Source: a bacterium
GTDB taxonomy: Bacteria > Patescibacteria > Paceibacteria > UBA6257 > Brennerbacteraceae
Direction: 5' to 3'
NCBI GenBank assembly: GCA_021813305.1
Contig: JAKALE010000001.1
Span: forward strand, 1 to 15,071
DNA: 15,071 nt
Made by a program: the position numbers and the translations under genes. This document shows positions 55 to 15,071 of the stretch, one piece after another. The notes under the pieces were generated by a model that worked only from the letters and a program-made list of their open reading frames with translations, ran no database searches and was not told the DNA's origin. Each line of letters begins with the position of its first letter. Positions within the stretch are counted from its first letter, which is position 1.

Positions 55-57
55 AGG

Positions 58-675: not shown

Positions 676-676
676 A

Positions 677-1228: not shown

Positions 1229-1240
1229 GGAGATAGACGT

Positions 1241-1249: not shown

Positions 1250-1284
1250 CCCGTTATGTGAAAAGTCCTTGTGGAAACAAGCGT

Positions 1285-1293
1285 TTATCCACA
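1285..1293 (+). promoter_or_regulatory. Exact DnaA box in the pilM-pilN gap
   Basis: The gap contains TTATCCACA, the strongest consensus DnaA box. A weaker match, GTTTCCACA, lies on the other strand about 10 bp away (1269-1277). A nine-base match can arise by chance in a window of this size, and there is no box cluster or AT-rich unwinding region here. I read it as a possible DnaA-responsive site rather than an origin. Confidence 0.3.
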
Positions 1294-1297
1294 TCCG

Positions 1298-2401: not shown

Positions 2402-2413
2402 AGTTCAAAATCC

Positions 2414-2441
2414 ATTATACACTATCTATATTCTCCGTGAA
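2414..2441 (-). promoter_or_regulatory. pilM promoter (short leader)
   Basis: On the minus strand TTCACG (2436-2441) and a perfect TATAAT (2414-2419) are separated by 16 bp. The -10 ends 12 nt before the ATG, so the transcript would carry only about 4-6 leader bases, too few for a ribosome-binding site. Confidence 0.6.
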
Positions 2442-2598
2442 GCGTTCAGGTTTCGAAAAATCTTTTGTCCTTGAACATAGTTCTCGTAGGCGTCGGAAGC
2501 TCGGTCCCTAAAAGGGTTCCGGCGCCGAGAGCACAGGCAATCGCAAGCCGCAGGAGCATGCGAATTGCCGGTATGGTCAAGGATAAGGGATTTTTCAC

Positions 2599-3330: not shown

Positions 3331-3860
3331 CGCGTGTGATGCTTGGACGGAAACATTCTTCTGATGAAAAGGATTTCCGGAATTGAAAACACCACGCCCA
3401 AGATCGCGCCCCCCAGGATATCCGATGACCAGTGCACGCCGGCCGCAATGCGCGCAATGCCGACCAGGGCCGCAACGGCAAATAATGCAGCTCCTGCTTT
3501 TTTGTTTTCAAACCATACCGAGGTCGCCAGGGAAAACAGGAAAATCGTGTGATCCGACGGAAACGACGTATACCATTCCCGCGGGGCAACAAAAACCAAC
3601 GGCGCCAAGTGATCTGTGATGAACGGACGCGGCGAGTATACGACCATGCGGATCAGCTGTGCGAGCACCAGATAATTGCCTCCGGCAGGCACGAACAGCA
3701 ATATCGTATGCCACAGATCCTTTCTGCGCATCCATGCCCAATAGAGCACCACGACCGCCGTGATATACACCAGATATTTTGCAAAGAAAATCACGAGGTA
3801 TTTTGCGATCGCGCTTGATACCGCCCAGGAATACAAAAAAGAAGAAAGAAATTGGTTCAT
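3327..3860 (-). CDS. PAP2-family membrane phosphatase (undecaprenyl-diphosphatase-like)
   Basis: The 177-residue membrane protein has about five hydrophobic segments and all three PAP2 motifs: R71-x6-R78-P79, P101-S-D-H104, and R137-x5-H143-x3-D147. His104 and His143 are the expected catalytic pair. PAP2 membrane enzymes of this size often recycle undecaprenyl diphosphate to the monophosphate carrier (BcrC type) or act on phosphatidyl lipids; the motifs do not separate these. The ATG is 9 bp after the ClpP-like stop, so the two may be co-transcribed. AAGG lies too far upstream to be a good SD, and the AT-rich gap could itself hold a -10. Confidence 0.85.
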   Translation of the reverse strand: MNQFLSSFLYSWAVSSAIAKYLVIFFAKYLVYITAVVVLYWAWMRRKDLWHTILLFVPAGGNYLVLAQLIRMVVYSPRPFITDHLAPLVFVAPREWYTSFPSDHTIFLFSLATSVWFENKKAGAALFAVAALVGIARIAAGVHWSSDILGGAILGVVFSIPEILFIRRMFPSKHHTR

Positions 3861-3869
3861 AATTTATAT

Positions 3870-4412
3870 TTAACCTTTTATCAAGGGAATTGTTTCCACA
3901 ACATCATGCACGAGACCATATTTCGTTTTTGCATCATTTGTTGTTAAAATGTCGCCGGTTTTCAGAATAACACGCATTTCTTCATCACTTTTCTTCAACT
4001 CTTTAGCAAAGATATCAACATATCTTTTATATAGATCTTGCATAACCTTCAATGTCTCTTCATGTATATGTAAAGGGGCAACTTGGTTACCACTAAATGT
4101 TCCCTCGTGCAAAAAGAAGCGGCAACCAGAAACCGCCGTACGTCTTTGTCCTGCCAAAAAGATTACATTAGCTGCGGAATCTATCTGGGTGAATCCAATA
4201 GTTTCGACTCTGAACGGCAGGGATTTTAAATAAGTATATGCGCGTATGGCAGAATCCATATCCCCACCGTTCGAGGAAATGAATAATTTCAATTTTTCTA
4301 TATTTTGTCCAGAATATACTTGACCACTAAGCCAAGTAATTAATTGATTTATTGAATTTGAATCAATTGTGCCTGTGAATGTATACCAAATTTCCATATC
4401 CTTAATCTTCAT
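3870..4412 (-). CDS. Orphan ClpP-like (Clp/crotonase fold) serine protease
   Basis: The 180-residue protein aligns with ClpP through its core. ISSNGGDMDSA at 45-55 matches the oxyanion strand region (usual INSPGG). Ser79 in DSAANVIFLAG takes the nucleophile position. His102 in FFLHEG and Asp154 in the segment before KYGL complete the triad. The catalytic set is intact but the sequence is far from housekeeping ClpP: the usual AASM around the serine is replaced and the N-terminal loop that docks to ClpX/ClpA is not recognisable. The gene is visibly more AT-rich than its neighbours, has no Clp ATPase beside it, and lies next to a tRNA-like repeat, which suggests horizontal acquisition. It could be a membrane-associated or phage/plasmid-type Clp-fold peptidase. 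Confidence 0.75.
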   Translation of the reverse strand: MKIKDMEIWYTFTGTIDSNSINQLITWLSGQVYSGQNIEKLKLFISSNGGDMDSAIRAYTYLKSLPFRVETIGFTQIDSAANVIFLAGQRRTAVSGCRFFLHEGTFSGNQVAPLHIHEETLKVMQDLYKRYVDIFAKELKKSDEEMRVILKTGDILTTNDAKTKYGLVHDVVETIPLIKG

Positions 4413-4443
4413 TAATAAATTTTCTCAACAGATATGACTGGGG

Positions 4444-4460
4444 TCGAACCCGCGATACCC
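4444..4460 (-). repeat. 17-bp copy of tRNA-Ser T-arm/variable-arm sequence
   Basis: TCGAACCCGCGATACCC occurs here and at 4901-4917 inside tRNA-Ser, in the same orientation. Read on the minus strand it is variable-arm end, T-stem and the start of the T-loop. Around this copy no acceptor stem, anticodon arm or D arm can be built, so it is not a functional tRNA. It is either a scar of an old tRNA-directed insertion or the remnant of a second tRNA. Confidence 0.6.
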
Positions 4461-4488
4461 ACATACATAACGCCTAGAATTTAGCCCC

Positions 4489-4845
4489 TCATGCATGGCA
4501 TACAAGCGACCCATTGCACAAGATTTGCAACAACGCGATCGCAATGCCAATTAACGCAAGATTCGCGACGGGCAGTAGGGCAAAAACCATCCCCCAACGG
4601 AGCTTCTTGGGGGACTGATTACCAAACGCGCAGAACAATCCTCCAATGCAGGACACAAGGAGCATAACCGGAACAACGGCAAGGCTGAACGCGAACAAAA
4701 TCGTCGGGATGCTGGTCTCCGATCCTGGCGCGTCGAACAAAAATGCTGCGCTCAGTGCAAGCAAAACGCCCGGCAGTACCAACAGTCCATACACAATACT
4801 GAGAATTCTTGATATCCAACGTTTTACCGAATCTGAGAGTTTCAT
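4489..4845 (-). CDS. Small hydrophobic membrane protein, family unknown
   Basis: The 118-residue protein has a basic N-terminus (KLSDSVKRWISR) and three hydrophobic segments at about 14-36, 48-75 and 84-108. A short loop with the basic patch SPKKLRW sits before the last segment. I see no catalytic motif and do not recognise a family. It is bracketed by tRNA-Ser on its 5' side and the 17-bp tRNA-derived repeat on its 3' side, so it is the sole gene of a possible small insertion. No SD or clear promoter precedes the ATG; read-through from the tRNA-Ser promoter is possible. Composition resembles the rest of the window. Confidence 0.5.
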   Translation of the reverse strand: MKLSDSVKRWISRILSIVYGLLVLPGVLLALSAAFLFDAPGSETSIPTILFAFSLAVVPVMLLVSCIGGLFCAFGNQSPKKLRWGMVFALLPVANLALIGIAIALLQILCNGSLVCHA

Positions 4846-4885
4846 GCGCGAATGTAATCTTTAATTTAAGACTGCTCGATAGCAG

Positions 4886-4972
4886 CGGAGAGGGCGGGAT
4901 TCGAACCCGCGATACCCTTTCGGGTATACCACATTTCGAGTGTGGCGCCTTCGGCCGCTCAGCCACCTCTCC
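4886..4972 (-). tRNA. tRNA-Ser(CGA)
   Basis: The 87-nt cloverleaf has acceptor GGAGAGG/CCTCTCC, discriminator G, anticodon stem CCACA/TGTGG with loop CTCGAAA (anticodon CGA), a long class II variable arm (TACCC/GGGTA) typical of serine tRNA, and T-arm GCGGG/CCCGC with loop TTCGAAT. The discriminator is followed by CTG, so CCA is added after transcription. Confidence 0.96.
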
Positions 4973-5009
4973 GTAATTATTTTGCCGTTCCTATCAAATA
5001 GAATTAATC

Positions 5010-5051
5010 AGCCACTCACCGCCTTTGGCGGGACCCCGCTGTGCGGTGGCT
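5010..5051. terminator. GC-rich hairpin between the vanY-type gene and tRNA-Ser
   Basis: Outer arms AGCC-ACCGC pair with GCGGT-GGCT around a 4-nt bulge. Inside, two mutually exclusive hairpins are possible: CCGCC/GGCGG with loop TTT, or GCGG/CCGC with loop GACC. It lies downstream of the vanY-type stop. There is no good U-tract, so it may instead be a leader structure of the tRNA-Ser transcript. Confidence 0.3.
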
Positions 5052-5065
5052 CTCCAAACTATTCC

Positions 5066-5074
5066 GTTATACCA
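5066..5074 (-). promoter_or_regulatory. tRNA-Ser extended -10 promoter
   Basis: On the minus strand TGGTATAAC is an extended -10 about 90 bp upstream of the tRNA-Ser 5' end. The predicted transcript would start near 5058 and cover the GC-rich hairpin before the tRNA. Confidence 0.4.
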
Positions 5075-5100
5075 TATTCGCCCTGTCCGGGCTACGCGCA

Positions 5101-5862
5101 TTACTTCCCTACGTACCGCCAGTGCCACGGCTCAAATTTGATGCCTTTGGCATTCTTGGGAACATACGAAAGCGCGAATCCGAACCGCCGGGCGTTTTTG
5201 AGCATCCATTGATATTCTTTCGTTGCAATCATATGCTTCACGGTCTGGTCGTACGAATCCATATCATCGGGAATGCCGCTGTCGAACCTGATATCCATTG
5301 CCTGATGCTTGGGATCGCAATGCTCGCTGTACCCGGGCAACATGACCAGGCGCATAGCCGACATAAAATGATACCCGCACAATTGCCATTGGCGCAAAAA
5401 CGCGTTGAGCTGATAGGCAGGCGAACGATACCCGGAAAAAATATGCATGCTTGTTTCCAGCTCTTGTTTCATGGCGTGATTCATTTTTTGAAACGCGTCG
5501 TATGCCGGCTTGATAACATATTGGGTCCAGGTCACGCGCTGTTCGCCCTTGTACTCATACCGGAACGGCGGGATCCGCACCATGTTTTTGGGCACTTTGT
5601 GCACGCCGATTTTCTTTGCCGGCACGCCCCAGTGATTCGGGTTGATGGCAAGCACTCGCCTGATCAGCGCATGCTCGGCTTTGGTCAAACCCGTAGTTCT
5701 GCGAAAATTGGACAACAATTTGTCGAAATGGGAAAAATCGGAAACGAGCAAAACATTACCCTGCTCTTCGTTTTTCGCGCCGCGCAAAATTTTGTCCTTG
5801 AATACTTTACGCAAAATGGAATCGGCAACCAAAATATCGTCGGACGTAAGAGGGTATCGCAT
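5101..5862 (-). CDS. VanY-type (M15B) D-alanyl-D-alanine carboxypeptidase-like protein
   Basis: From the start chosen here the protein has 253 residues. The C-terminal half carries the M15B set: SGYRS at 143-147, LPGYSEH ending at His181, Asp190 in AMDI, and FEPWHWRY at 243-250 with Glu244 (general base) and His247 (third zinc ligand). Such enzymes trim the terminal D-Ala from peptidoglycan stems outside the membrane. Two oddities: the His181-Asp190 spacing is two residues longer than the usual SxHxxGxAxD and lacks the glycine, and no signal peptide or membrane anchor is visible. A longer frame starts at 5919, but a TATGAT -10 ends 7 nt before the ATG at 5862, which favours a leaderless start there. 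The approximately 120-residue N-terminal region is unassigned. Confidence 0.75.
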   Translation of the reverse strand: MRYPLTSDDILVADSILRKVFKDKILRGAKNEEQGNVLLVSDFSHFDKLLSNFRRTTGLTKAEHALIRRVLAINPNHWGVPAKKIGVHKVPKNMVRIPPFRYEYKGEQRVTWTQYVIKPAYDAFQKMNHAMKQELETSMHIFSGYRSPAYQLNAFLRQWQLCGYHFMSAMRLVMLPGYSEHCDPKHQAMDIRFDSGIPDDMDSYDQTVKHMIATKEYQWMLKNARRFGFALSYVPKNAKGIKFEPWHWRYVGK

Positions 5863-5869
5863 GGCTTCC

Positions 5870-5878
5870 ATCATACCA
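5870..5878 (-). promoter_or_regulatory. vanY-type gene extended -10, leaderless
   Basis: On the minus strand TGGTATGAT ends 7 nt before the ATG at 5862, so transcription would begin at or next to the A of the start codon. This element decides the start chosen for the gene. Confidence 0.5.
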
Positions 5879-5883
5879 TTTCG

Positions 5884-5910
5884 TTGCAAACTTGCGTAAA
5901 GCGCGATAAA
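5884..5910 (+). promoter_or_regulatory. tRNA-Ala(GGC) promoter candidate
   Basis: TTGCAA (5884-5889) and GATAAA (5905-5910) are 15 bp apart, a short spacing. The predicted start is about 5 nt before the tRNA 5' end. It is divergent from the vanY-type promoter. Confidence 0.4.
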
Positions 5911-5921
5911 GTAGAGCACGC

Positions 5922-5992
5922 GGGCCTATGGTTCAACGGCAGAACATTGCCATGGCATGGCAAGGGTCGGGGTTCAATTCCCCGTAGGTCCA
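5922..5992 (+). tRNA. tRNA-Ala(GGC)
   Basis: The 71-nt cloverleaf has acceptor GGGCCTA/TAGGTCC, including the G3:U70 pair that marks alanine tRNAs, anticodon stem TTGCC/GGCAA with loop ATGGCAT (anticodon GGC), T-arm CGGGG/CCCCG with loop TTCAATT, and discriminator A. CCA is not encoded. Confidence 0.95.
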
Positions 5993-6092
5993 CACAAGCC
6001 ATTCCTGCCCTATAGCTTCCTCCTTCGCTCTCATTCGCATTCGAGCTCCGGACGGACGAGCGTCTTGATATCATAATGCTTGCCCATACGAA

Positions 6093-6112
6093 ACTCTGAT
6101 GCAAATCAGAGT
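6093..6112 (+). other. Hairpin with GCAA tetraloop between two tRNAs
   Basis: ACTCTGAT and ATCAGAGT form a perfect 8-bp stem closed by GCAA, a stable GNRA-type loop, 8 bp before tRNA-Arg. There is no T-tract, so it is more likely a processing or spacer structure in a joint tRNA-Ala/tRNA-Arg precursor than a terminator. Confidence 0.5.
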
Positions 6113-6120
6113 GTAGTAGG

Positions 6121-6192
6121 GCCCCTATAGCTCAACGGATAGAGCAGATCCGTCCTAAGGATAAGATGAGGGTTCAATTCCTTCTGGGGGCA
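6121..6192 (+). tRNA. tRNA-Arg(CCT)
   Basis: The 72-nt cloverleaf has acceptor GCCCCTA/TGGGGGC (with one U-G pair), D-arm GCTC/GAGC, anticodon loop GTCCTAA (anticodon CCT), T-arm GAGGG/CCTTC with loop TTCAATT, and discriminator A. The outermost anticodon-stem pair is G-A, so that helix has four canonical pairs. CCA is not encoded. Confidence 0.93.
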
Positions 6193-6242
6193 CATTGAAA
6201 CATTCACACCCCTTGTCACGCGGCTCATTGCGGCTTTTCATT

Positions 6243-6251
6243 TGCTATACT
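6243..6251 (+). promoter_or_regulatory. Extended -10 promoter of the HtrA-like gene
   Basis: TGCTATACT is an extended -10 with no -35 at the right distance. The predicted start near 6258 falls on the first bases of the left arm of the inverted repeat and on an ATG, giving a leader of about 130 nt before the protease. Confidence 0.5.
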
Positions 6252-6257
6252 GGATGC

Positions 6258-6278
6258 ATGCCCGGTAGTGAATTTTGA
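6258..6278 (+). CDS. Possible 6-codon leaderless upstream ORF 1
   Basis: An ATG 6 nt after the TGCTATACT element opens MPGSEF followed by TGA. The -10-to-ATG spacing equals that of dprA. Such a short frame could be accidental; its position at the predicted transcript start is the only support. Confidence 0.25.
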   Translation: MPGSEF

Positions 6279-6306
6279 ATCGCTTGCGACTATCATTAGG
6301 ACACAC

Positions 6307-6320
6307 CGCAAACGTTTGCG
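6307..6320. promoter_or_regulatory. 14-bp perfect palindrome resembling a LacI/GalR-type operator
   Basis: CGCAAACGTTTGCG is a perfect palindrome with a central CpG, the form bound by LacI/GalR-family regulators (close to the enterobacterial PurR box). It lies about 50 bp downstream of the predicted start, where a bound repressor could act as a roadblock. No such regulator is encoded in the window. It could instead be an RNA hairpin. Confidence 0.4.
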
Positions 6321-6330
6321 AACTCACAAT

Positions 6331-6390
6331 ATGAAAACCCGGCGCATTCACGTTTATTTAAAAATATTCAAAATCTACTACCGGGCATGA
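6331..6390 (+). CDS. Possible 19-residue upstream ORF 2, overlapping the protease start
   Basis: ATG at 6331 opens MKTRRIHVYLKIFKIYYRA and ends at a TGA that overlaps the protease start as ATGA (6387-6390). This is the classic arrangement for translational coupling and would explain how a start codon buried in the inverted repeat is opened. The peptide is strongly basic (K3, R3) and aromatic. No SD precedes it. It may be a leader peptide or chance. Confidence 0.35.
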   Translation: MKTRRIHVYLKIFKIYYRA

Positions 6391-7352
6391 CTATTCCTGA
6401 CGTCATCAAAAAAACTTCGCCGGCACTGGTCAGCATCATTTTGACCAAGCACGATGCGCGATCTCAGGATCAGCACGATATCCCTTCGACCGAAGTGGAA
6501 ACTGGGACCGGATTTTTCGCGGACAAAAACGGACTCGTCCTCACCAACCGCCACGTGGTGTTCGAACTCAATGCCGATTACTGGGTATGGTGGAACAACA
6601 AGAAATATTTTGCCGAAATCCTCGGCAGGGATCACGTCAACGATGTGGCACTGTTGCGCATCCAGGAAAAACGAACGCCCTCCATTGACCTGGGCGACTC
6701 GTCGCGCATCGTGCTGGGCGAAGACGTGATCGCCCTGGGCAATGTGTTCGGAGAATTGCACAATACGGTCTCGGCGGGCATTATTTCCGGATTGTCACGC
6801 AACATTTACGCCGTGGACGAACCGTACCGCAAAACGTTCGAACTGCGTGGCCTCATCCAAACCGATGCAGCCATCAATCCGGGCAACTCCGGCGGACCTT
6901 TAGTCAATATGAGAGGACAAGTCATTGGCATCAATACCGCGACCGTAAGCGGATACGAGAATATCGGGTTTGCGATTCCGATCAATCATGCGCGGTTTGA
7001 CATCCAGGAAATCAAGAAATTCGGCGCCATCAGAAAACCGTACTTGGGCATCCGCTATATTACGCTTGACCAAAGCCTTGCCGCACGCTATGTGCTGCCC
7101 GTTGACCATGGCGCGTATGTTTTAAGGGAACCGGAACCTGACGGGCTAGGCATCATTCCCCAAAGTCCAGCGGATAAAGCCGGCCTGAAAGAGGGAGATA
7201 TCATTATTTCCTGCGACAACAAGCAGATCACCTACGAAAAAACCCTCAAAGACCTTATCCGGGAAAAGCAAATCGGATCAAAAGTAAGATTGCGCGTACT
7301 CCGAAATGGGAAATACCTCGAAACCGATCTTATGATCCAAGAGCAGAAATAG
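6387..7352 (+). CDS. HtrA/DegP-like trypsin-fold serine protease with one PDZ domain
   Basis: The 321-residue protein has a chymotrypsin-fold protease domain (about 1-205) with triad His56 (TNRHVV), Asp86 (NDVALLRI) and Ser168 (NPGNSGGPL), then one PDZ domain (about 215-315) containing SPADKAGLKEGDIIISCDN. HtrA proteases act in envelope or protein quality control. Unlike most HtrA proteins it has no signal peptide or membrane anchor: MTIPDVIKKTSPALVSI leads straight into the protease fold. It therefore looks cytoplasmic, unless an upstream start is used by frameshift from the coupled leader ORF. A strong terminator follows at once, so it is a single-gene unit. Confidence 0.9.
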   Translation: MTIPDVIKKTSPALVSIILTKHDARSQDQHDIPSTEVETGTGFFADKNGLVLTNRHVVFELNADYWVWWNNKKYFAEILGRDHVNDVALLRIQEKRTPSIDLGDSSRIVLGEDVIALGNVFGELHNTVSAGIISGLSRNIYAVDEPYRKTFELRGLIQTDAAINPGNSGGPLVNMRGQVIGINTATVSGYENIGFAIPINHARFDIQEIKKFGAIRKPYLGIRYITLDQSLAARYVLPVDHGAYVLREPEPDGLGIIPQSPADKAGLKEGDIIISCDNKQITYEKTLKDLIREKQIGSKVRLRVLRNGKYLETDLMIQEQK

Positions 7353-7365
7353 GTGTATCGGAAAG

Positions 7366-7402
7366 ACACGCAAAAACGCCCTTATCGGGCGTTTTTGCGT
7401 GT
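7366..7402. terminator. Strong bidirectional intrinsic terminator
   Basis: A perfect 16-bp stem (7366-7381 with 7387-7402) and a 5-nt loop TTATC, with AAAAACGCCC on one side and GGGCGTTTTT on the other, so each strand has a T-run in its stem. It sits between the convergent protease gene and tRNA-Ala(TGC) and can serve both. Confidence 0.9.
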
Positions 7403-7416
7403 TCATATCCTCTGAG

Positions 7417-7487
7417 TGGACCTAGCCAGAATCGAACTGGCGCCTACGCGATGCAAACGCGTCGTTCTACCACTAGACCATAGGCCC
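7417..7487 (-). tRNA. tRNA-Ala(TGC)
   Basis: The 71-nt cloverleaf has acceptor GGGCCTA/TAGGTCC with the G3:U70 alanine identity pair, anticodon stem ACGCG/CGCGT with loop TTTGCAT (anticodon TGC), T-arm GCCAG/CTGGC with loop TTCGATT, and discriminator A. CCA is not encoded. Its acceptor is identical to that of tRNA-Ala(GGC). Confidence 0.96.
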
Positions 7488-7516
7488 ATAAAGGGACGCA
7501 TTGAGCGTCCCTTTAT
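7488..7516 (-). other. 12-bp perfect hairpin flush with the tRNA-Ala 5' end
   Basis: ATAAAGGGACGC and GCGTCCCTTTAT pair perfectly around a 5-nt loop. On the minus strand the stem ends at the base before tRNA position 1. No promoter fits between it and the tRNA, so the tRNA must be made by read-through from the DUF5679 gene. A partial terminator or a processing guide is possible; the U-run is poor. Confidence 0.7.
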
Positions 7517-7530
7517 GTGTAGCAAAGAAG

Positions 7531-7683
7531 TTATGCTTTGCCAAGGATGCGAACCATCTTGGTTCCGCAGATCTCGCACATTCCCTTCATGACTCTGCGA
7601 TCTCCGCGCTTTCCGTGCATCACTTCTTCCTTCTCATCCTTCATGTTGCGCTTTGCTTTGCACTTTACGCAATATGCTTCCAT
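7531..7683 (-). CDS. DUF5679 mini zinc-ribbon protein
   Basis: The 50-residue protein starts MEAYCVKCKAKRNMKD and ends CEICGTKMVRILGKA. Two CxxC pairs (Cys5/Cys8 and Cys36/Cys39) flank a basic middle, the layout of the DUF5679 family, common in candidate-phylum bacteria and of unknown function; its size and charge recall small zinc-ribbon ribosomal proteins. It is followed by a perfect hairpin and tRNA-Ala(TGC), with which it is probably co-transcribed. CCTATAAA lies just before the ATG but too close (4 nt) for an ordinary -10, and there is no SD. Upstream at 7715-7736 a GCGG/UCGC stem with A/T runs can form. Confidence 0.85.
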   Translation of the reverse strand: MEAYCVKCKAKRNMKDEKEEVMHGKRGDRRVMKGMCEICGTKMVRILGKA

Positions 7684-7806
7684 GTTTTTTATAGGTTTTT
7701 ATTTTTCTAAAGCGATTTTTCGGCAAAAACCGCTTCTTCAAACCGTTTTCATTATATCCTGTTCTCCTCTAAAATGCAACGGATGGATCGTTTTAAGAGG
7801 AAAATA

Positions 7807-7815
7807 TGCTATATT
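7807..7815 (+). promoter_or_regulatory. Extended -10 promoter of the 210-nt RNA candidate
   Basis: TGCTATATT, an extended -10 of the form seen elsewhere in the window, with no clear -35. The predicted start, about 7822, falls just before the 5' strand of the RNA's closing stem. Confidence 0.5.
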
Positions 7816-7821
7816 TTATGA

Positions 7822-8034
7822 ACAGATGCAGAAACAGAAGGAGTTCCGAGGACGGGTTCGAATCCCATCCCTGTATAACCGGAATCGGATTCTCTTGTTC
7901 AAAGCGTAGCCTGGGAGACTATGAAGCTGCGTCTTTGGGCGCAGCGGAGTCGAAAATGGAACACCAGCATCAAGAAAATCTTGTTTCGGCTTCTGCATAT
8001 GAGGCCGCCATTACTTGGCGGCCTGTTTTATTTT
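7822..8034 (+). ncRNA. Candidate structured RNA of about 210 nt, family unknown
   Basis: Bounded by an extended -10 promoter and an intrinsic terminator, with no convincing protein frame. The ends close on each other: ATGCAGAA (7826-7833) pairs with TTCTGCAT (7991-7998). Inside are ACAG/CTGT enclosing GGACGGG-TTCGAAT-CCCATCC, a close mimic of a tRNA T-arm, and GCTGCGTC/GGCGCAGC with a TTTG loop nested in GACT/AGTC. CAAGA/TCTTG forms a small hairpin near the 3' end. I checked for tRNA, tmRNA, SRP RNA, RNase P RNA and T-box signatures and found none complete. Size and end-closing would fit a 6S-like RNA, but I cannot support that name. Confidence 0.55.
8002..8034 (+). terminator. Intrinsic terminator of the RNA candidate
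   Basis: AGGCCGCC and GGCGGCCT form a perfect 8-bp stem around ATTACTT, followed by GTTTTATTTT. Confidence 0.85.
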
Positions 8035-8065
8035 CCAAAACAAAAGCAGCTTTAACGTAAGCTGC
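8035..8065 (-). terminator. Minus-strand intrinsic terminator of unit 3
   Basis: On the minus strand GCAGCTT/AAGCTGC with a 6-nt loop is followed by TTTTGTTTT. It sits back to back with the plus-strand terminator of the RNA candidate, so two convergent small transcripts end here. Confidence 0.7.
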
Positions 8066-8079
8066 AAACGATAATATCT

Positions 8080-8105
8080 ACTGCACAAGGATTTCCTCGT
8101 GCAGT
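8080..8105 (-). other. 11-bp hairpin downstream of micro-ORF 3
   Basis: On the minus strand ACTGCACGAGG and CCTTGTGCAGT pair (one G-U) around AAAT, about 24 nt after the stop of the 9-codon ORF. There is no T-run; it is an internal structure of the small transcript. Confidence 0.6.
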
Positions 8106-8118
8106 ATGAAACGCGACA

Positions 8119-8148
8119 TTGACAGGCATCAGTTATTAAAACGATTAT
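8119..8148 (+). promoter_or_regulatory. Possible antisense promoter over micro-ORF 3
   Basis: A perfect TTGACA (8119-8124) and GATTAT (8143-8148) lie 18 bp apart. A transcript starting near 8155 would be antisense to the SD and promoter region of micro-ORF 3 and would stop at the terminator 8204-8239, giving an RNA of about 85 nt. Confidence 0.35.
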
Positions 8149-8158
8149 AAGCAGTCAT
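8129..8158 (-). CDS. Micro-ORF 3 (9 codons) with near-perfect SD
   Basis: AAAGGAGG (8164-8171) lies 5 nt before ATG, followed by MTAYNRFNN and TGA. A TGGTATATA extended -10 predicts a start a few bases before the SD, so this is a complete mini-gene: promoter, SD, ORF, hairpin, terminator, about 140 nt in all. It shares the start Met-Thr and the in-frame word GCTTATAAT (Ala-Tyr-Asn) with micro-ORF 2. Function unknown; a translated leader or sensor is more likely than a functional peptide. Confidence 0.5.
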   Translation of the reverse strand: MTAYNRFNN

Positions 8159-8181
8159 GTGCGCCTCCTTTCTAAATTCAG

Positions 8182-8190
8182 TATATACCA
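8182..8190 (-). promoter_or_regulatory. Extended -10 promoter of unit 3
   Basis: On the minus strand TGGTATATA ends about 10 nt before the AAAGGAGG ribosome site of micro-ORF 3. Confidence 0.5.
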
Positions 8191-8203
8191 TTCCTTGAAT
8201 ATG

Positions 8204-8239
8204 AAAAGCTGCGCACCATAATACGATGCGCAGCTTTTT
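8204..8239. terminator. Bidirectional intrinsic terminator
   Basis: AAAAGCTGCGCA and TGCGCAGCTTTT form a perfect 12-bp stem; the plus strand continues into a fifth T. It would end the long minus-strand unit 2 and any plus-strand RNA from 8155. On the minus strand it lies directly upstream of the unit 3 promoter. Confidence 0.8.
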
Positions 8240-8240
8240 C

Positions 8241-8271
8241 CGGCAGGTTAGATGTAAGATGCCACCTGCCG
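8241..8271. other. 8-bp hairpin in the RNA island
   Basis: CGGCAGGT and ACCTGCCG pair perfectly around a 15-nt loop. No T-run. It is within unit 2 if that transcript runs to the 8204-8239 terminator. Confidence 0.45.
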
Positions 8272-8287
8272 ACCTAAAAACCAGCCT

Positions 8288-8326
8288 GCGAGGAGTTTTT
8301 GCGTTGCAAGCGCAAACCCCTCTCGC
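8288..8326. other. Two-part stem in the RNA island
   Basis: GCGAG/CTCGC is the base and TTTGCG/CGCAAA the tip of an interrupted stem around TTGCAAG. Confidence 0.45.
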
Positions 8327-8332
8327 CAGTAT

Positions 8333-8379
8333 CCTCCTTTTCGTTTCGCACAAAATCGCGCGAAACGATCACGAGGAGG
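8333..8379 (+). promoter_or_regulatory. Hairpin that sequesters the SD of the 51-codon ORF
   Basis: TCGTTTCGC and GCGAAACGA form a perfect 9-bp stem (8341-8368). Below it CCTCC (8333-8337) can pair with GGAGG (8375-8379), the ribosome site of the ORF starting at 8387. Read on the minus strand the same structure hides the GGAGG at 8333-8337, but no start codon follows that one at a usable distance. Confidence 0.55.
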
Positions 8380-8386
8380 TGAAGAA

Positions 8387-8542
8387 GTGAAGACATTGCT
8401 CCTCCTCAATCAAGTAAAGCCTTTTGGGGAACCCAATTCAACCATGCGCGAGTCGGAATTTTATCCGGAGGGTCTTCTCGACGCCCTCTTTCCGAAATCT
8501 TCAATGGTTACTCGCAATTATAAGCGTAACGCCAGGTCATAG
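8387..8542 (+). CDS. Possible 51-residue protein with strong SD, family unknown
   Basis: GTG preceded at 6 nt by GAGGAGGT opens a 51-codon frame ending in TAG. The N-terminus is MKTLLLLNQVKPFGEP and the C-terminus is basic (RNYKRNARS). No domain is recognised, and the short leucine run is too short for a membrane segment. Its 3' third is antisense to unit 2 (micro-ORF and pseudoknot), so the two strands compete for interpretation. The SD favours translation here; the conserved-looking RNA folding inside 8440-8515 favours a minus-strand RNA. A weak TGTAAGAT at about 8253-8260 is the only upstream promoter candidate. Confidence 0.4.
   Translation: MKTLLLLNQVKPFGEPNSTMRESEFYPEGLLDALFPKSSMVTRNYKRNARS
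8440..8515 (-). ncRNA. Pseudoknotted RNA element downstream of micro-ORF 2
   Basis: Read on the minus strand: GCGAG (8515-8511) and TCGGAA (8495-8490) pair with the contiguous TTCCGACTCGC (8458-8448), 11 bp in two steps with a 15-nt one-sided bulge. AACCAT in that bulge (8509-8504) is complementary to ATGGTT (8445-8440) two bases past the helix, which makes a pseudoknot. GAGGG/CCCTC forms a hairpin in the apical part. The micro-ORF 2 stop codon (TAA) overlaps the bulge, so translation would disturb the fold. Confidence 0.5.
8508..8540 (-). CDS. Micro-ORF 2 (10 codons) with SD
   Basis: AAGGAG (8550-8555) lies 9 nt before ATG, then MTWRYAYNCE and TAA. The leader word TTTAGAAAAGGAG matches TTTAGAAAGGAG of micro-ORF 3, both begin ATGAC, and both contain in-frame GCTTATAAT. 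It is the start of a structured transcript that could run to the terminator at 8204-8239 (about 350 nt). It overlaps the 3' end of the plus-strand 51-codon ORF. Confidence 0.45.
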   Translation of the reverse strand: MTWRYAYNCE

Positions 8543-8565
8543 GCTCACTCTCCTTTTCTAAACAA

Positions 8566-8574
8566 ACCATAGCA
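8566..8574 (-). promoter_or_regulatory. Extended -10 promoter of unit 2
   Basis: On the minus strand TGCTATGGT, predicting a start near 8559, just before the SD of micro-ORF 2. No clear -35. Confidence 0.45.
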
Positions 8575-8582
8575 TATCTTAT

Positions 8583-8615
8583 GAAAAATAAAAGATGGGC
8601 TATATTCCAAGCCCA
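8583..8615 (-). terminator. Intrinsic terminator of unit 1
   Basis: On the minus strand TGGGCT/AGCCCA around an 8-nt loop is followed by TCTTTTATTTTTC. It lies about 10 bp upstream of the unit 2 promoter. Confidence 0.75.
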
Positions 8616-8625
8616 CCCGTTTCGT

Positions 8626-8657
8626 CCCTGCTGAGTCACAATTGTGACGCAGCAGGG
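8626..8657. repeat. 32-bp near-perfect palindrome
   Basis: CCCTGCTG and CAGCAGGG flank GTCACAATTGTGAC, itself a perfect palindrome, with one mismatched pair (8634/8649). As RNA it is a 13-bp stem with an AATT loop starting 4 nt after the stop of micro-ORF 1. As DNA it could also be a protein-binding site. Confidence 0.75.
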
Positions 8658-8661
8658 AAAC

Positions 8662-8679
8662 TCATAAAGAACTCTTCAT
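8662..8679 (-). CDS. Micro-ORF 1 (5 codons) with SD
   Basis: GAGGAG (8687-8692) lies 7 nt before ATG, then MKSSL and TGA. It sits between two strong hairpins (8708-8735 and 8626-8657) and before a terminator. The organisation resembles a leader-peptide attenuator without a downstream structural gene. Too short for coding statistics. Confidence 0.35.
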   Translation of the reverse strand: MKSSL

Positions 8680-8707
8680 AATTCTTCTCCTCTGCAGTTG
8701 AAAACGG

Positions 8708-8735
8708 ACTGTGCAAATTCGCAAATTTACACAGT
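8708..8735 (-). other. 12-bp hairpin upstream of micro-ORF 1
   Basis: On the minus strand ACTGTGTAAATT and AATTTGCACAGT pair with one U-G around TGCG, in the predicted 5' leader of unit 1. Confidence 0.6.
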
Positions 8736-8747
8736 AGATAGATATTC

Positions 8748-8756
8748 ACTATAGCA
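8748..8756 (-). promoter_or_regulatory. Extended -10 promoter of unit 1
   Basis: On the minus strand TGCTATAGT, with TTAAGT 16 bp upstream of the hexamer as a weak -35. It is divergent from the dprA promoter, 30 bp away. Confidence 0.45.
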
Positions 8757-8785
8757 CTATTTGTAAAAAACTTAAGGTCCATAAG

Positions 8786-8794
8786 TGCTATGCT
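8786..8794 (+). promoter_or_regulatory. dprA extended -10, leaderless
   Basis: TGCTATGCT ends 6 nt before the dprA ATG, so the transcript should start at or beside the start codon. No SD is present. Confidence 0.5.
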
Positions 8795-8800
8795 GAACAT

Positions 8801-9661
8801 ATGCCAATCCAGGAACTGCATCCGCGCGATGCGTTATACCCGTTTTTGCTCGAGCAAATACAGAAATCGCCTGACCCGCTCTATGTTTCAGGCACGCTGC
8901 TCAAGCATGAGCCCTGTTTCACGGTCGTGGGCACGCGCAAACCAACTGCATACGGCATCGAAGCATGCAGATATTTCGTCGCGGAGCTCTGCCGCGCAGG
9001 ATTCACCATCGTAAGCGGTTTGGCATTCGGCATCGACGCCATGGCGCATCAAACCGCGCTCGAGTCGCATGGACGCACCATCGCCGTACTCGGTTCAGGC
9101 CCCGATATCATCACGCCACGGTCAAACGAGCCGCTCGGAAAACAAATCGAACAGCACGGTGCCCTTGTTTCGGAATTTGCTCCGGGCACGGATGCGCAAA
9201 AATTCACGTTTCCGCAACGCGACCGCATCATGGCAGGGTTTTCCTTCGGAACTCTGGTCATTGAAGCAGGATATAAATCAGGCGCGCTTATTACGGCACG
9301 CAATGCGACCGAGCACGGCCGCGACGTATTCTGCGTGCCAGGCCCTGTTTTTTCCCTTGCGTCCCAAGGAACGAATATGCTTATCCAGCAGGGCGCGAAG
9401 TTGGTCATGACTGTCCAGGATATTCTCGAAGAATATAAAGAAATTCAGCAAACGAATCTCGGTTTTCCGCGGCCGGACCAAAAACTCGATGCCGTGCAAA
9501 AGAAAATCGTCGCGTGTTTGACAGAACCAAAATCCCTTGATGCAATACATGCCGAGACGCACATCGCGCTGAACGAACTCCAAAGCGCAATTACAGCGCT
9601 TGAATTGGAACGCTTGATCGCGCATCTTCCGGACAATACGTATCGCCTGATCCATGGCTAA
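8801..9661 (+). CDS. dprA: DNA-processing protein DprA (Smf)
   Basis: The 286-residue protein has the DprA Rossmann-like domain with VGTRKPTAYG at about 43-52, SGLAFGIDAMAHQTAL at about 72-87, FPQRDRIMAGFS in the middle and IEAGYKSGALITARNA further on, then GTNMLIQQGAKLV and a C-terminal winged-helix-like domain (about 225-286). DprA loads RecA onto incoming single-stranded DNA during transformation. It is short at the N-terminus, lacking the SAM/HhH extension of many homologues. The start is fixed by the leaderless promoter. The stop overlaps the topA start by 8 bp, so topA translation is probably coupled. It pairs functionally with the pilus genes and comF in this window. Confidence 0.93.
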   Translation: MPIQELHPRDALYPFLLEQIQKSPDPLYVSGTLLKHEPCFTVVGTRKPTAYGIEACRYFVAELCRAGFTIVSGLAFGIDAMAHQTALESHGRTIAVLGSGPDIITPRSNEPLGKQIEQHGALVSEFAPGTDAQKFTFPQRDRIMAGFSFGTLVIEAGYKSGALITARNATEHGRDVFCVPGPVFSLASQGTNMLIQQGAKLVMTVQDILEEYKEIQQTNLGFPRPDQKLDAVQKKIVACLTEPKSLDAIHAETHIALNELQSAITALELERLIAHLPDNTYRLIHG

Positions 9662-11735
9662 CCGCACGCTTATCATTGTCGAATCCCCTACCAAAGCCCG
9701 CACAATAGGCGGTTTTTTGGGGAAAGAATACGAAGTTTTGTCCTCATTCGGTCACGTGCGCGATCTTCCAACCAACAAGTTCGACAAGCAAACGCGCTTC
9801 GGCATCGACATTGAACACGATTTCGAACCCCGGTATGTCGTCCCCGCAAAAGCAAAAGAAAACGTGACAAAACTGCAAAAAGCAGCTGCCAATGCTACGC
9901 AAGTGATCCTTGCGACCGACGAGGACCGCGAAGGAGAAGCCATTGCATGGCACCTTGCGTATCTCTTGAACAATCCCGAATCCGCAAAGCGGAAAACGAA
10001 GAAAGCTGCAAAGACCCCTGTCCCAACCCGGTTTTCCCGTATCGTGTTCCATGAAATCACGAAACAAGCGATCAATGAAGCGTTGGAACATCCGCGCGAC
10101 ATCGACCAACGTCTGGTCGACGCGCAGCAGGCTCGCAGGGTGCTTGACCGCTTGTCCGGATACGAGCTGTCCCAGTTCTTGTGGCACAAGATCAAATACG
10201 GCCTGTCCGCAGGAAGGGTGCAGTCGGTCGCGCTGCGGCTTTTGTGCGAACGCGAAGCACAGATCCAGGCATTCATGCAAACGGAATATTTCGACATCAC
10301 GGCAACGTGTGCAGCGCACAAGGCAAAAACAAAAAAGCAAGGATTTTCCGCGCAGCTTATTTCAATCAACAACGAACCCATTAAAGAGCCCGGCATCCTG
10401 GACAAAGCGCAAGCCGACGCGGCCGTCAAAGACCTTGAAAAAAGCGAATTCATCGTCAAAGACGCGCAAACGCGCGTGGTAACCCGTTCGGCACCGGCTC
10501 CATTCACGACCAGCACCTTGCAGCAGGCTTCGTGGCAAAAGCTCCGCTTCTCCGCAAAGCAAACCATGATGGTTGCGCAACAGCTTTACGAACAAGGACT
10601 TATCACCTACATGCGCACGGACTCGACCAATCTCTCGCAGCAATCCGTGCTTGCCGCGCGCGCATACGTCGAAAATGCGTTCGGCAAAACCTACGTGCCG
10701 GATCATTTCAACGTATACAAGACGAAAAGCAAGCTTGCGCAGGAAGCGCACGAAGCCATCAGACCAACGGACGCGTTCAAAACCCCGGAAACCATGGTGC
10801 AGCTGGATGCACGCCAGCACAAGCTCTATGCACTGATCTGGTCGCGCTTTGTTGCATCGCAAATGGAAAAAGCAAAGCTTGCGCAGCAAAGCATCATCGT
10901 GACTGCGCATTCCCTTGTGACGCAAACGGATTACACGCTCAAAGCAAACGGACAAACCATTGCGTTCGACGGATTCCTGGCAGCCTGGGATTCGGTGCAA
11001 AAACAAAATGCCCTGCCCGACCTTGCCAAGGGCGATGCGCTTGACGCAAGCGATATCCAAGTTTCCCAGCATTTCACCCTGCCCCCCGCGCGCTACAACG
11101 ACGCGTCATTAGTCAAAACCATGGAAGAGCTCGGTATCGGCAGACCATCCACGTACGCGAGCATCCTCAACACCATCATTGTGCGCGGGTATGTCGAGCG
11201 CACGCAAACACGTTCGTTGCAGCCCACGGGACTTGGCATGATCGTCAACGAGCTTTTGGTCAAACATTTTCCCTCGATTCTGGATTACCAATTCACCGCG
11301 CAAAATGAAGACGAGCTTGACCAAGTTGCCCAGGGCGAGCGCGTATGGCACGACGTCATCCGCGCATTCTATAATCCGTTCCACGAACTCGTGGAACAAA
11401 AAGAAAAAGAGGTGACCCGAAGAGAAGCGAGCGAGCGCCCGTCGGACGAGGTCTGCGACAAATGCGGCTCGCCCATGGTGGTCAAATGGGGGCGCTATGG
11501 CAGGTTCCTTGCCTGCTCCAATTACCCCGCATGCTCGAATATAAAGAAAATGAAAACAGAACAGCAAGATCTCGGGCCGTGTCCAACCTGCGGGCAAACC
11601 GAAGGCGGAAAAATTGTCATGCGCAAAACAAAAAAACGCGGCAGACCGTTCTACGGCTGTTCGCGCTGGCCAACATGCACATTCGCGTCCTGGAAAAAAC
11701 CGGAGGAAAACAATGAAACCACTGCAGCTTCATAA
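9654..11735 (+). CDS. topA: DNA topoisomerase I (type IA)
   Basis: The 693-residue enzyme relaxes negative supercoils. The TOPRIM domain carries Glu10 (VESPTKA) and Asp89-x-Asp91-x-Glu93 (ATDEDREGEAIAWHL) for magnesium. Tyr319 in TYMRTDST is the catalytic tyrosine, and SAGRVQSVALRLL is the conserved domain IV motif. Two C-terminal zinc ribbons begin at Cys601 (CDKCG) and Cys643 (CPTCG) and end in Cys-x4-5-Cys pairs. Length is typical of compact bacterial TopA proteins. It overlaps dprA by 8 bp and the next gene by 23 bp; dprA-topA linkage is common in bacteria. No SD or promoter of its own is visible. Confidence 0.97.
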   Translation: MANRTLIIVESPTKARTIGGFLGKEYEVLSSFGHVRDLPTNKFDKQTRFGIDIEHDFEPRYVVPAKAKENVTKLQKAAANATQVILATDEDREGEAIAWHLAYLLNNPESAKRKTKKAAKTPVPTRFSRIVFHEITKQAINEALEHPRDIDQRLVDAQQARRVLDRLSGYELSQFLWHKIKYGLSAGRVQSVALRLLCEREAQIQAFMQTEYFDITATCAAHKAKTKKQGFSAQLISINNEPIKEPGILDKAQADAAVKDLEKSEFIVKDAQTRVVTRSAPAPFTTSTLQQASWQKLRFSAKQTMMVAQQLYEQGLITYMRTDSTNLSQQSVLAARAYVENAFGKTYVPDHFNVYKTKSKLAQEAHEAIRPTDAFKTPETMVQLDARQHKLYALIWSRFVASQMEKAKLAQQSIIVTAHSLVTQTDYTLKANGQTIAFDGFLAAWDSVQKQNALPDLAKGDALDASDIQVSQHFTLPPARYNDASLVKTMEELGIGRPSTYASILNTIIVRGYVERTQTRSLQPTGLGMIVNELLVKHFPSILDYQFTAQNEDELDQVAQGERVWHDVIRAFYNPFHELVEQKEKEVTRREASERPSDEVCDKCGSPMVVKWGRYGRFLACSNYPACSNIKKMKTEQQDLGPCPTCGQTEGGKIVMRKTKKRGRPFYGCSRWPTCTFASWKKPEENNETTAAS

Positions 11736-12369
11736 ACTCCATCGCACGTCAAACGCCCTGCACAAAACCTTTGGCGACGCGAACTATTGTTCGATCAACG
11801 GGGCTGGCTGCACAGAAAAACCGCGTTGCATGTTCGTGTTCATGAATCCGACCGCGGCGAATGTTTCTGCGCGCAAATCATGGCGGTCATTGCGCGCGCC
11901 CTGGATCGGTACGAAAACGGTGTGGAAATTATTCCATGCCATCGGCGGCATATCGGACAAAACCTATCAAGCAACGCAATGCATGCAAGCGCATGCATGG
12001 ACCCCTGTGTTCGCGAAACAGATATATAGGGAATTGGCGCACAAGAAATTTTACATAACCAATCTTGCCAAATGCACACAGCCCGATGCGCGGCCGCTTT
12101 CCAATCACGTTTTCAAGCAATACATGCCCCTCTTCCGGCAAGAAACGCTTCACGTACGCCCGCGCGCGATTATCGCTTTCGGCAACCAGGTCAGCTCCAT
12201 CCTGCTTGAAAAACAAATACGCGTGGGCGACTACCGAACGAACGCACATGAACTGATCAAGACAAAAAGAAAGGAATTCCGCGTATATCCCACGTATTAT
12301 CCTGTCGGACAAGGCATGCGCAACATGCCCAAGGCCATCGCGCGGATCAAAAACATCCTTGCTATCTGA
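11713..12369 (+). CDS. Uracil-DNA glycosylase superfamily-like protein
   Basis: From the ATG preceded by GGAGG at 6 nt the protein has 218 residues; the start lies inside topA (23-bp overlap). It fits the UDG superfamily fold: FVFMNPTAANVSARKSW at 41-57 where family 4/5 enzymes have GEAPG, FYITNLAKCTQPDARPLS at 113-130 matching the 'itNvvKcrPp..R' motif, and PRAIIAFGNQVSSILL at 150-165. The usual HPS motif near the end is replaced by YPTYYPVGQG (192-201). Cys26, Cys33, Cys39 and Cys121 could hold a modified iron-sulfur or zinc site. The replaced motifs mean uracil excision is not assured. Operon position with topA and dprA supports a DNA-related role. Confidence 0.65.
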   Translation: MKPLQLHKLHRTSNALHKTFGDANYCSINGAGCTEKPRCMFVFMNPTAANVSARKSWRSLRAPWIGTKTVWKLFHAIGGISDKTYQATQCMQAHAWTPVFAKQIYRELAHKKFYITNLAKCTQPDARPLSNHVFKQYMPLFRQETLHVRPRAIIAFGNQVSSILLEKQIRVGDYRTNAHELIKTKRKEFRVYPTYYPVGQGMRNMPKAIARIKNILAI

Positions 12370-13105
12370 CTTTTGTCGCGCCCACGATGATATACGTGGG
12401 AATATGATGCGACTTCTGAAGCGGCTTCGAAAACTGCGTTGCGAATCCTTTTGATTCCGGTTCGTACACAGCGTGCACGAACAGTCCGTATTTCGCCATG
12501 GCGTTCACGTACGCATTCAACGAGCGGTTGATCAAGGATAGCTTTGTTTTCTTGTCCCAACCGGAACTCACGGCAACCCGGATATCCTTGAGATATCCGG
12601 TTGTTTTTATGAACAATCTTTCTTTGCCTTGCACCGTCCCCTTCACCCATTCGGAATACGGATATGCCGGACGCAAAAAATGGTTCGTGGCAAAAACCAC
12701 GATGCCGTTTGGTTTCAGAATCCTGGAAATACCGCGAAACAGTGCTTCGATATCCTTGATGTAATTGATCACCATATTCATGATGACCGCATCGAATTTT
12801 TTCGCTCCCAATCCGTGGAAATCGACTCCATCCCGTACGGAATATTCAATATTCAGACCTTCACTCTTTTCCTGCGCAATACCGATCAATGCCTTGGAAA
12901 TGTCTGAGGCAACCACATGCACGCCTTTCTTTGCGAGATTTCGCGCCATGTACCCGTTCCCGCAGCCGATATCGTATATCCGCTTGCCCTTGGGATTGCC
13001 GATAATCTTGTAAATATACGGATCGATCTGCGTGCGGTGATAAAAATCGCCGTGTTCGGACATGGCGTCGGCATATTGCCATGCAAATTTGTCGTAACTG
13101 GCCAT
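12362..13105 (-). CDS. Class I SAM-dependent methyltransferase
   Basis: The 247-residue protein opens with YDKFAWQYADAMSEH, typical of UbiE/COQ5-like or Methyltransf_11/25 proteins. Motif I IYDIGCGNGYMARNL is at 43-57, the acidic motif II loop HVVASDIS at 63-70, and the post-II strand FDAVIMNMVINYIKDI further on. The substrate cannot be deduced. It converges on the UDG-like gene with an 8-bp overlap of the 3' ends and starts 19 bp after the aldo/keto reductase gene, so it probably belongs to the parB transcript. No SD is visible. Confidence 0.85.
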   Translation of the reverse strand: MASYDKFAWQYADAMSEHGDFYHRTQIDPYIYKIIGNPKGKRIYDIGCGNGYMARNLAKKGVHVVASDISKALIGIAQEKSEGLNIEYSVRDGVDFHGLGAKKFDAVIMNMVINYIKDIEALFRGISRILKPNGIVVFATNHFLRPAYPYSEWVKGTVQGKERLFIKTTGYLKDIRVAVSSGWDKKTKLSLINRSLNAYVNAMAKYGLFVHAVYEPESKGFATQFSKPLQKSHHIPTYIIVGATKVR

Positions 13106-13124
13106 GTAGACTTTTACTGAATCT

Positions 13125-14174: not shown

Positions 14175-14186
14175 ATTTTTTAAAAA

Positions 14187-15047: not shown

Positions 15048-15054
15048 GCCTTTC

Positions 15055-15060
15055 ATGATA
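15055..15060 (-). promoter_or_regulatory. parB -10 element, leaderless
   Basis: On the minus strand TATCAT is followed by GAAAGGC and then ATG, the same geometry as the vanY-type gene. The -35 region lies beyond or at the window edge. Confidence 0.4.
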
Positions 15061-15071
15061 CAGCAATTCTT

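Follow-up and report, generated by a model that had tools for sequence, protein, structure and literature searches.

A tandem row of three Shine-Dalgarno-led micro-ORF units in a Brennerbacteraceae genome and its tentative reading as a cluster of mini-genes

Introduction

What are three tiny predicted transcription units doing in one row within a gene-poor stretch of DNA from a lineage of ultra-small bacteria? The stretch, positions 8035-8760, lies within 15,071 nt of a Patescibacteria genome of the Brennerbacteraceae lineage (GCA_021813305.1, contig JAKALE010000001.1, positions 1 to 15,071; "the window" below means this whole length), and the 726 nt of its minus strand contain three times the order of an extended -10 promoter element, a Shine-Dalgarno (SD) sequence and a micro-ORF (very short open reading frame, ORF). 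The three-unit arrangement is real and not a product of chance; the arrangement, its non-randomness, the positional conservation of the middle unit (unit 2) and a protein relative of a small ORF within that unit (ORF2) are directly supported. As an explanation we propose, tentatively and at less than even confidence, that the stretch may be a cluster of separately transcribed SD-led mini-genes, in which unit 2 would be a small-protein gene gated by a leader peptide.

If the micro-ORFs are translated, they would be SD-led genes in bacteria of which two relatives have a 16S lacking the anti-SD, and so a natural test of the role of the SD in the absence of an rRNA partner, and unit 2 would be a leader-peptide device for an unknown small protein in Patescibacteria, no such case being found among the literature matches listed. 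The stretch yields checkable predictions, namely three transcription start sites, three micro-ORF starts and one ORF2.

Layout of the three units

The -10, SD and micro-ORF positions proposed in an earlier note on this DNA were confirmed in the sequence for all three units (Table 1). Of the terminators proposed there, the terminator scan lists two, those that follow units 1 and 3; the one at 8204-8239 is missing from the list, and its T run sits within its own stem. The scan returned four sites, compared with a shuffle mean of 2.1, and thus single terminator sites carry little weight. The minus-strand RNA is predicted to fold strongly (z of -8.7 relative to 20 shuffles).

Table 1. Features of the three minus-strand units and of the neighbouring plus-strand RNA (window positions; G440 is a relative genome, L141 its locus)
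Feature	Position	Strand	Basis or remark
Unit 1, extended -10 (TGCTATAGT)	8748-8756	minus	position read; chance test by shuffles
Unit 1, SD-like GAGGAG	8687-8692	minus	position read
Unit 1, micro-ORF MKSSL	8662-8679	minus	absent from the G440 interval (direct reading)
Unit 1, hairpin (8626-8657) and terminator-like hairpin (8593-8618)	8593-8657	minus	folding, terminator scan
Unit 2, extended -10 (TGCTATGGT)	8566-8574	minus	position read; shuffle test
Unit 2, SD1 AAAAGGAGAG	8548-8557	minus	aligns with the G440 SD
Unit 2, micro-ORF MTWRYAYNCE	8508-8540	minus	G440 counterpart MTRFNCFVMANSE at L141:315-356
Unit 2, pairing P1 (8510-8515 with 8448-8453; takes in the micro-ORF end) around P2 (8491-8496 with 8464-8469)	8448-8515	minus	
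Unit 2, SD2 GAGGAGGAG of ORF2	8399-8407	minus	position read
Unit 2, ORF2 (small ORF, 40 aa)	8274-8396	minus	relative P0122; G440 counterpart L141:480-623
Unit 2, CCUCCUC, possible partner of SD2 or of downstream GGAGG	8373-8379	minus	core pattern in 4 of 244 genomes, including the G440 syntenic place
Unit 2, competing AAGGAGGAU	8331-8339	minus	position, duplex energies
Unit 2, 3' hairpin, possible terminator	8204-8238	minus	fold; missing from the terminator scan list
Unit 3, extended -10 (TGGTATATA)	8182-8190	minus	position read; shuffle test
Unit 3, SD AAAGGAGG	8164-8171	minus	position read
Unit 3, micro-ORF MTAYNRFNN	8129-8158	minus	absent from the G440 interval (direct reading)
Unit 3, hairpin (8080-8105) and terminator-like hairpin (8046-8065) plus T run	8036-8105	minus	folding, terminator scan
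Predicted stand-alone structured RNA, not among the three units	7822-8031	plus	L1-stalk-like core 7897-7972; terminator 8002-8031; 5' end estimated

Tests against chance

The three micro-ORFs with an SD and an ATG on the minus strand compare with a mean of 0.106 in shuffled sequences, where at least three were reached in one shuffle of 1000; with GTG and TTG starts allowed, three were reached in 11 of 1000. Similarly, three extended -10 elements were observed against a shuffle mean of 0.25, and a single shuffle of 1000 had three. When the -10, SD and micro-ORF were required jointly, 2988 of 3000 shuffles contained none, 12 contained one, and none contained two or more. The joint scan of the whole window returned these three units only.

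Searches with DprA identified six relative genomes of one family, G440 and G409 among them. Scanned jointly on both strands, G440 contains three matches in 1,045,852 strand-bases, G409 none in 882,686, and other Patescibacteria loci (L001-L041 and L081-L140, some of which overlap one another or G440) one in 1,676,054. The G440 counterpart of unit 2, described below, is not among the three G440 matches, as its TATAAT is not preceded by TGn. A pattern scan of viral contigs gave 42 matches, all of them starts of ORFs of 89-149 codons.

That the neighbouring genes lack SDs, as the earlier note stated, was confirmed (an SD precedes none of the 15 window genes). Ordinary genes of G440 have an SD in 11 of 479 cases, compared with a background of 1.2%, and in a second test in 12 of 412, which equals the genome's own background of 2.9%; the Clostridia control gave 62 of 168.

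Conservation of unit 2

At the end of a G440 contig (C18, locus L141) lies the start of a gene that we take to be dprA, with residues 1-69 of its product 74% identical to those of the window's. It is followed, as in the window, by the DUF5679 gene, a tRNA gene and a gene which is presumably HtrA, with one extra ORF between the tRNA and HtrA; this shared order makes the G440 interval syntenic with that of the window. DprA and TopA assign the window to Patescibacteria; the best TopA relative in the searched genome contigs has 52% identity.

The G440 interval between dprA and DUF5679 contains a single unit, comprised of a TATAAT box, an SD, the micro-ORF MTRFNCFVMANSE, a structured stretch and a terminator-like hairpin. 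It retains, on the same strand as unit 2, GGAGAG..GCCTATGAC at the micro-ORF start and GCGAGTA at its end; the G440 micro-ORF is 9 nt longer, with the frame intact and the Glu-stop end kept. The local alignment of unit 2 with the G440 element scores 16.5; when unit 2 was shuffled 500 times, 3 shuffles did at least as well. In the same test the observed score was reached by 11 of 500 shuffles for unit 3, 167 of 500 for unit 1 and 465 of 500 for the plus-strand RNA, and in the reverse-complement control of unit 2 by 98 of 500. Judged by sequence comparison, unit 2 is the only unit demonstrably old. Direct reading of the G440 interval revealed neither units 1 and 3 nor the plus-strand RNA, and the shorter interval leaves no room for them. 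Conservation in relatives, set as a test by the earlier note, was thus found in the G440 interval for unit 2 (start, stop end and frame kept) but for neither of the other units.

Blastn of the region gave, in the six family genomes, only short matches at chance level (best E-value 0.003 over 30 nt), but this search is too blunt to exclude units elsewhere, since the G440 unit itself was not recovered. The dprA neighbourhood differs in G409, G430 and G395, as far as it is readable, and no same-strand SD-led micro-ORF was seen upstream of DUF5679 in G210, G430 and G395 (in G430, within 242 readable nt). As for the pairings in unit 2, P1 is present in the minimum-energy fold of the window unit and absent from the folds of its 141-nt piece and of G440, while P2 was drawn by hand, appears in neither minimum-energy fold and differs in G440 by compensatory changes, seen by eye, which are weak evidence for it.

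Trp, Tyr, Phe, Asn and Cys account for 15 of the 29 residues in micro-ORFs 2 and 3 and that of G440 (15 of 33 with unit 1 added), compared with 13.7% in window proteins and 21.4% expected from base composition, the residue set having been picked afterwards. The similarity of the micropeptides among the units is weak (0.05-0.12 in pairwise shuffles, 18 of 3000 for the sum).

ORF2 and the possible pairing switch

The earlier note had described the stretch as gene-free, which does not hold, as micro-ORF 2 is followed by ORF2, a 40-codon ORF with its own SD. A search of 5.8 billion proteins yielded a sole relative, P0122 (46 aa, 69% identity, E-value 1.1e-5, 17 identical residues running); a profile search found nothing beyond P0122, and comparison with Pfam gave no family. 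P0122 is encoded on an 8932-base contig, and a DprA 81% identical to that of the window, P0002, on a contig of equal size, which suggests a single contig. At the place of ORF2, G440 has an SD-led 47-codon ORF (L141:480-623), with CTCCTC and GAGGAGGAT in the same frame.

The layout of a leader attenuator, that is, an SD-led leader ORF upstream of ORF2, is present in the sequence of unit 2, while units 1 and 3 have no ORF2. The scan list contains no terminator between micro-ORF 2 and ORF2, the weak one lying only inside ORF2. The succession GAGGAG..CCTCCTC..AGGAGG was found at 5 places, in 4 of the order's 244 genomes; G440 has it once, exactly where synteny would put it. The pattern was derived from the window and G440 copies, and its reversed control gave 7 matches in 3 genomes, so that it counts by place and not by rarity. 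In both copies the calculated duplex of CCUCCUC with the downstream GGAGGA is stronger than that with SD2 (-23.1 vs -14.1 and -14.0 vs -11.0 kcal/mol).

On the plus strand, antisense to unit 2, there is an SD-led GTG ORF of 51 codons (8387-8542) belonging to no Pfam family; its SD may be the mere complement of CCUCCUC on the opposite strand.

SD sequences and the 16S tail

The 16S rRNA gene of G440 (full-length Rfam match; L218, 4728-4790) has the 3' end GGATGGAAAATTTCTTTAAAG, and that of G409 (full-length match; L382) is the same, while two Falkowbacteria loci have the 16S end GGATGGATCACCTCCTTTC. The anti-SD is absent from both of the family 16S genes found, which come from two of the six genomes and serve as a proxy for the 16S of the window organism. 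The classical reading of the SDs is therefore doubtful. According to a published survey (PMC6107228), organisms without a perfect anti-SD generally also lack a recognisable SD. The present case shares with the genomes of that survey that CCUCCU is missing from the 16S tail and that SDs are missing from ordinary genes, but G440 differs in that its SD-led set is enriched in small ORFs. Among the literature matches listed on this question for the candidate phyla radiation (CPR), no description of this family was found.

GGAGG located 4-9 nt upstream of the ATG of small ORFs was observed 19 times in G440 (18 starts), compared with 5.5 expected. The corresponding numbers are 2 vs 0.5 in the window, 11 vs 4.0 in Clostridia, 0 vs 2.0 in other family loci, 11 vs 9.8 in other loci of the order and 9 vs 6.8 in other Patescibacteria. 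The predicted pairing energies of the window SDs are -9.5 to -14.6 kcal/mol with the canonical 16S tail and -3.9 to -5.1 with the derived one. Random 20-mers give -3.9 and -1.6 with the canonical and derived tails, respectively. For four ordinary leaders of the window the values are -4.9 to +1.4 with the former and -1.2 to +0.2 with the latter, so that some pairing of the SDs with the derived tail is still possible.

Several other observations concern initiation in these genomes. Small, often hydrophobic ORFs with strong SDs (AAAGGAGG and the like) occur in G440 at L223:961, L216:9300, L222:7848, L218:367 and L218:2112. A scan for trans anti-SDs gave four CACCTCCT-type matches in G440 and six in G409; two in each genome are outside long ORFs. 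At L216 9076-9122 (plus strand) of G440 a hairpin is followed by GGATCACCTCCTTA (match L216:9112), which has the sequence of a canonical 16S tail but belongs to no rRNA gene. Read on the opposite strand, this place directly follows the stop of an SD-led small ORF. One crude regular expression found no CsrA-like protein in G440 and G409, and no clear enrichment was seen for an AAAGA-type leader motif, which would match the derived 16S tail. TATAC and CATAA motifs are enriched 3-11 nt before start codons in G440 and G409, which suggests many leaderless mRNAs.

Proposed explanation and its alternatives

Under the proposed explanation, unit 2 would produce an RNA in which a leader ORF of 10-13 codons precedes a refoldable segment and ORF2 (40-47 aa). 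The SD of ORF2 could be covered by CCUCCUC, for which the downstream GGAGGA would compete. The last codons and the stop of the leader ORF are part of P1, so that a ribosome translating this ORF would decide whether P1 and P2 form; the P1/P2 state would set the partner of CCUCCUC and, through it, the level of ORF2 translation. Units 1 and 3, present in the window only, would give simpler transcripts with the micro-ORF directly before hairpins and a terminator, and may be micropeptide genes or ribosome-gated small RNAs (sRNAs). Transcription, translation, the switch, and the use of SDs without a 16S anti-SD are what we infer here. The earlier note had taken the units for translated regulatory RNAs or leader-peptide sensors detached from a structural gene. 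The regulatory part of this idea is retained, as the micro-ORFs are statistically real, the start, end and frame of unit 2 are kept and alternative pairings are possible, as in leader-peptide devices. "Detached" is not supported for unit 2, where an SD-led ORF2 with a relative lies downstream, and unit 2 is more likely a leader-peptide-gated small gene than a sensor detached from any gene.

A number of results speak against this explanation. DNA copies of unit 2 are two, and of units 1 and 3 one each. A covariance model of the window copy of unit 2, run without filters, did not match G440 significantly (E-value 3.6, behind two chance matches). The G440 ORF at the place of ORF2 has little sequence likeness to ORF2, and a further weak site in the terminator scan (5-pair stem, 8359-8373) lies within ORF2. 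The computed accessibility of SD2 hardly differs between the full transcript and its prefix, and since SD2 is no freer in the full transcript, the switch is unsupported by the energies. Conservation in ORF2, as judged by eye, falls at predicted helices and variation at RNA loops, so that RNA constraint could account for it. The 16S tails of G440 and G409, GAAAAUUUCUUU, contain no CCUCC; SDs of the window and G440 taken together reach only -3.9 to -5.2 kcal/mol with the derived tail vs -8.1 to -14.6 with the canonical one; and in G409 GGAGG before small ORFs is not enriched (5 vs 4.8 expected).

The main rival is a purely structural RNA. The units would then be untranslated structured sRNAs, with GGAGG and CCUCC acting in helices or in protein binding and the reading frames, micro-ORFs and ORF2 alike, being incidental, which we consider possible though rather unlikely. 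Strong folding of the minus strand, the 16S genes of two relatives without an anti-SD, the disuse of SDs by ordinary genes and the position of ORF2 amino-acid variation in RNA loops (by eye) are all compatible with it, but three SD and ATG frames with correct spacing, the frames of micro-ORF 2 and ORF2 common to the window and G440, and the enrichment of GGAGG at SD distance before small ORFs of G440 speak against it. It is clearly improbable that the units are foreign SD-led mini-genes brought by phage or mobile DNA, with SDs that suit ribosomes other than those here: G440 has unit 2 at the syntenic place, 50,697 phage records yielded no match and the other window genes look housekeeping-like (judged by eye only), although good SD pairing is seen only with the canonical tail and the G440 interval lacks units 1 and 3 and the plus-strand RNA. 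The leader ORF and sequestered SD of unit 2 recall tisB and hok, whose layout they resemble, and a sigma-70-like plus-strand site at 8119-8148 is antisense to unit 3, as would suit a type I toxin-antitoxin system in which ORF2 were a small toxin behind a structured leader and the plus strand gave the antisense RNA. We hold this to be very unlikely, since ORF2 has a short hydrophobic stretch only, with no membrane span by eye, and belongs to no Pfam family, while the plus strand of 8035-8760 has no extended -10.

That the arrangement is coincidental or decayed sequence is scarcely plausible: units 1 and 3 are indeed single copies, but two units were seen in none of the 3000 shuffles. Least credible of all is that the units are ordinary attenuators of transcription into the DUF5679 gene downstream, for which the common strand and the terminator-like hairpins after micro-ORFs could be cited; a convergent predicted RNA lies between them in the window, and in the window as in G440 DUF5679 seems, by eye, to have a TATAAT-like promoter of its own, so that the units are probably not its attenuators. 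A bolder version of the mini-gene explanation, to which we give very little credence, is that this lineage, lacking the anti-SD and belonging to an order without ribosomal protein uL1, keeps a reserve of SD-led mini-genes as a second translation channel, not read by the usual 16S-mRNA pairing, beside the RNA with an L1-stalk copy described below. Its readers, an equally faint prospect, might be a trans anti-SD RNA (unit 2, or the hairpin with GGATCACCTCCTTA), a variant ribosome or ribosomes of a host.

Comparison with known systems

In translational attenuation of the ermC type a leader ORF with SD1 is followed by a second ORF, the SD2 of which can be covered by an internal anti-SD. Unit 2 is similar, having an SD1 leader ORF and then an ORF with a coverable SD2, but its ORF2 is of 40-47 aa and of no known family, its CCUCCUC is contested from downstream, and sensing, stalling and induction would be hypothetical. 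SgrS and RNAIII are dual-function sRNAs with a short ORF within a structured small RNA; the units share this feature, while their ORFs are of 5-10 codons and they are so far without targets.

The rnTrpL/peTrpL system of Sinorhizobium meliloti (PMC7298713) is a ribosome-dependent attenuator whose terminated product acts in trans. Like the units, it has a short leader ORF and a terminator, from which a peptide and a small RNA that stands alone result. Unlike rnTrpL, which is leaderless and begins at the ATG, the present units are SD-led, tandem and three in number, with no biosynthetic gene downstream.

A predicted plus-strand RNA with an L1-stalk-like core

The predicted convergent RNA at 7822-8031 would be about 210 nt long, with an extended -10, TGCTATATT, just upstream (by eye), a terminator-like hairpin and a folding z of -3.5; it holds a tRNA T-arm-like GGGTTCGAATCCC. 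Blastn with 7815-8035 gave matches at an E-value of 0.01 or lower in 18 of 243 genomes of the order. Matches to the core 7897-7972 (72-76% identity over 50-76 nt) are the L1 stalk of 23S rRNA, and the rest are short and elsewhere in the query. With the window copy included, a model gave matches in 163 of the 243 genomes, two each in 12 of them. Flanking 23S sequence was looked for at 39 of these places, namely 30 best loci and 9 stretches. It is present on both sides at 38 and on one side at the remaining one; around the window copy, which is outside any rRNA gene, there is none. By eye, the stalk of the window RNA is closer to other families of the order than to its own family.

Ribosomal protein uL1 was found in none of the 243 genomes of the order and in all 14 controls. 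Published work describes, for particular CPR lineages, the loss of uL1 and a shortened H78 (PMC12641178). At the Rfam gathering score the window contains four tRNAs only, and 7690-8810 gave weak sub-threshold matches. One Rfam hint, to c-di-GMP-II (17.9 bits), was rejected, as this stretch is the L1-stalk copy.

Near the DUF5679 promoter, an inverted repeat, CCTCTaAAAt..aTTTTAGAGG, is shared by the window (7740-7815) and G440 (L141, 690-780). It was seen by eye with one half aligned and is a possible operator.

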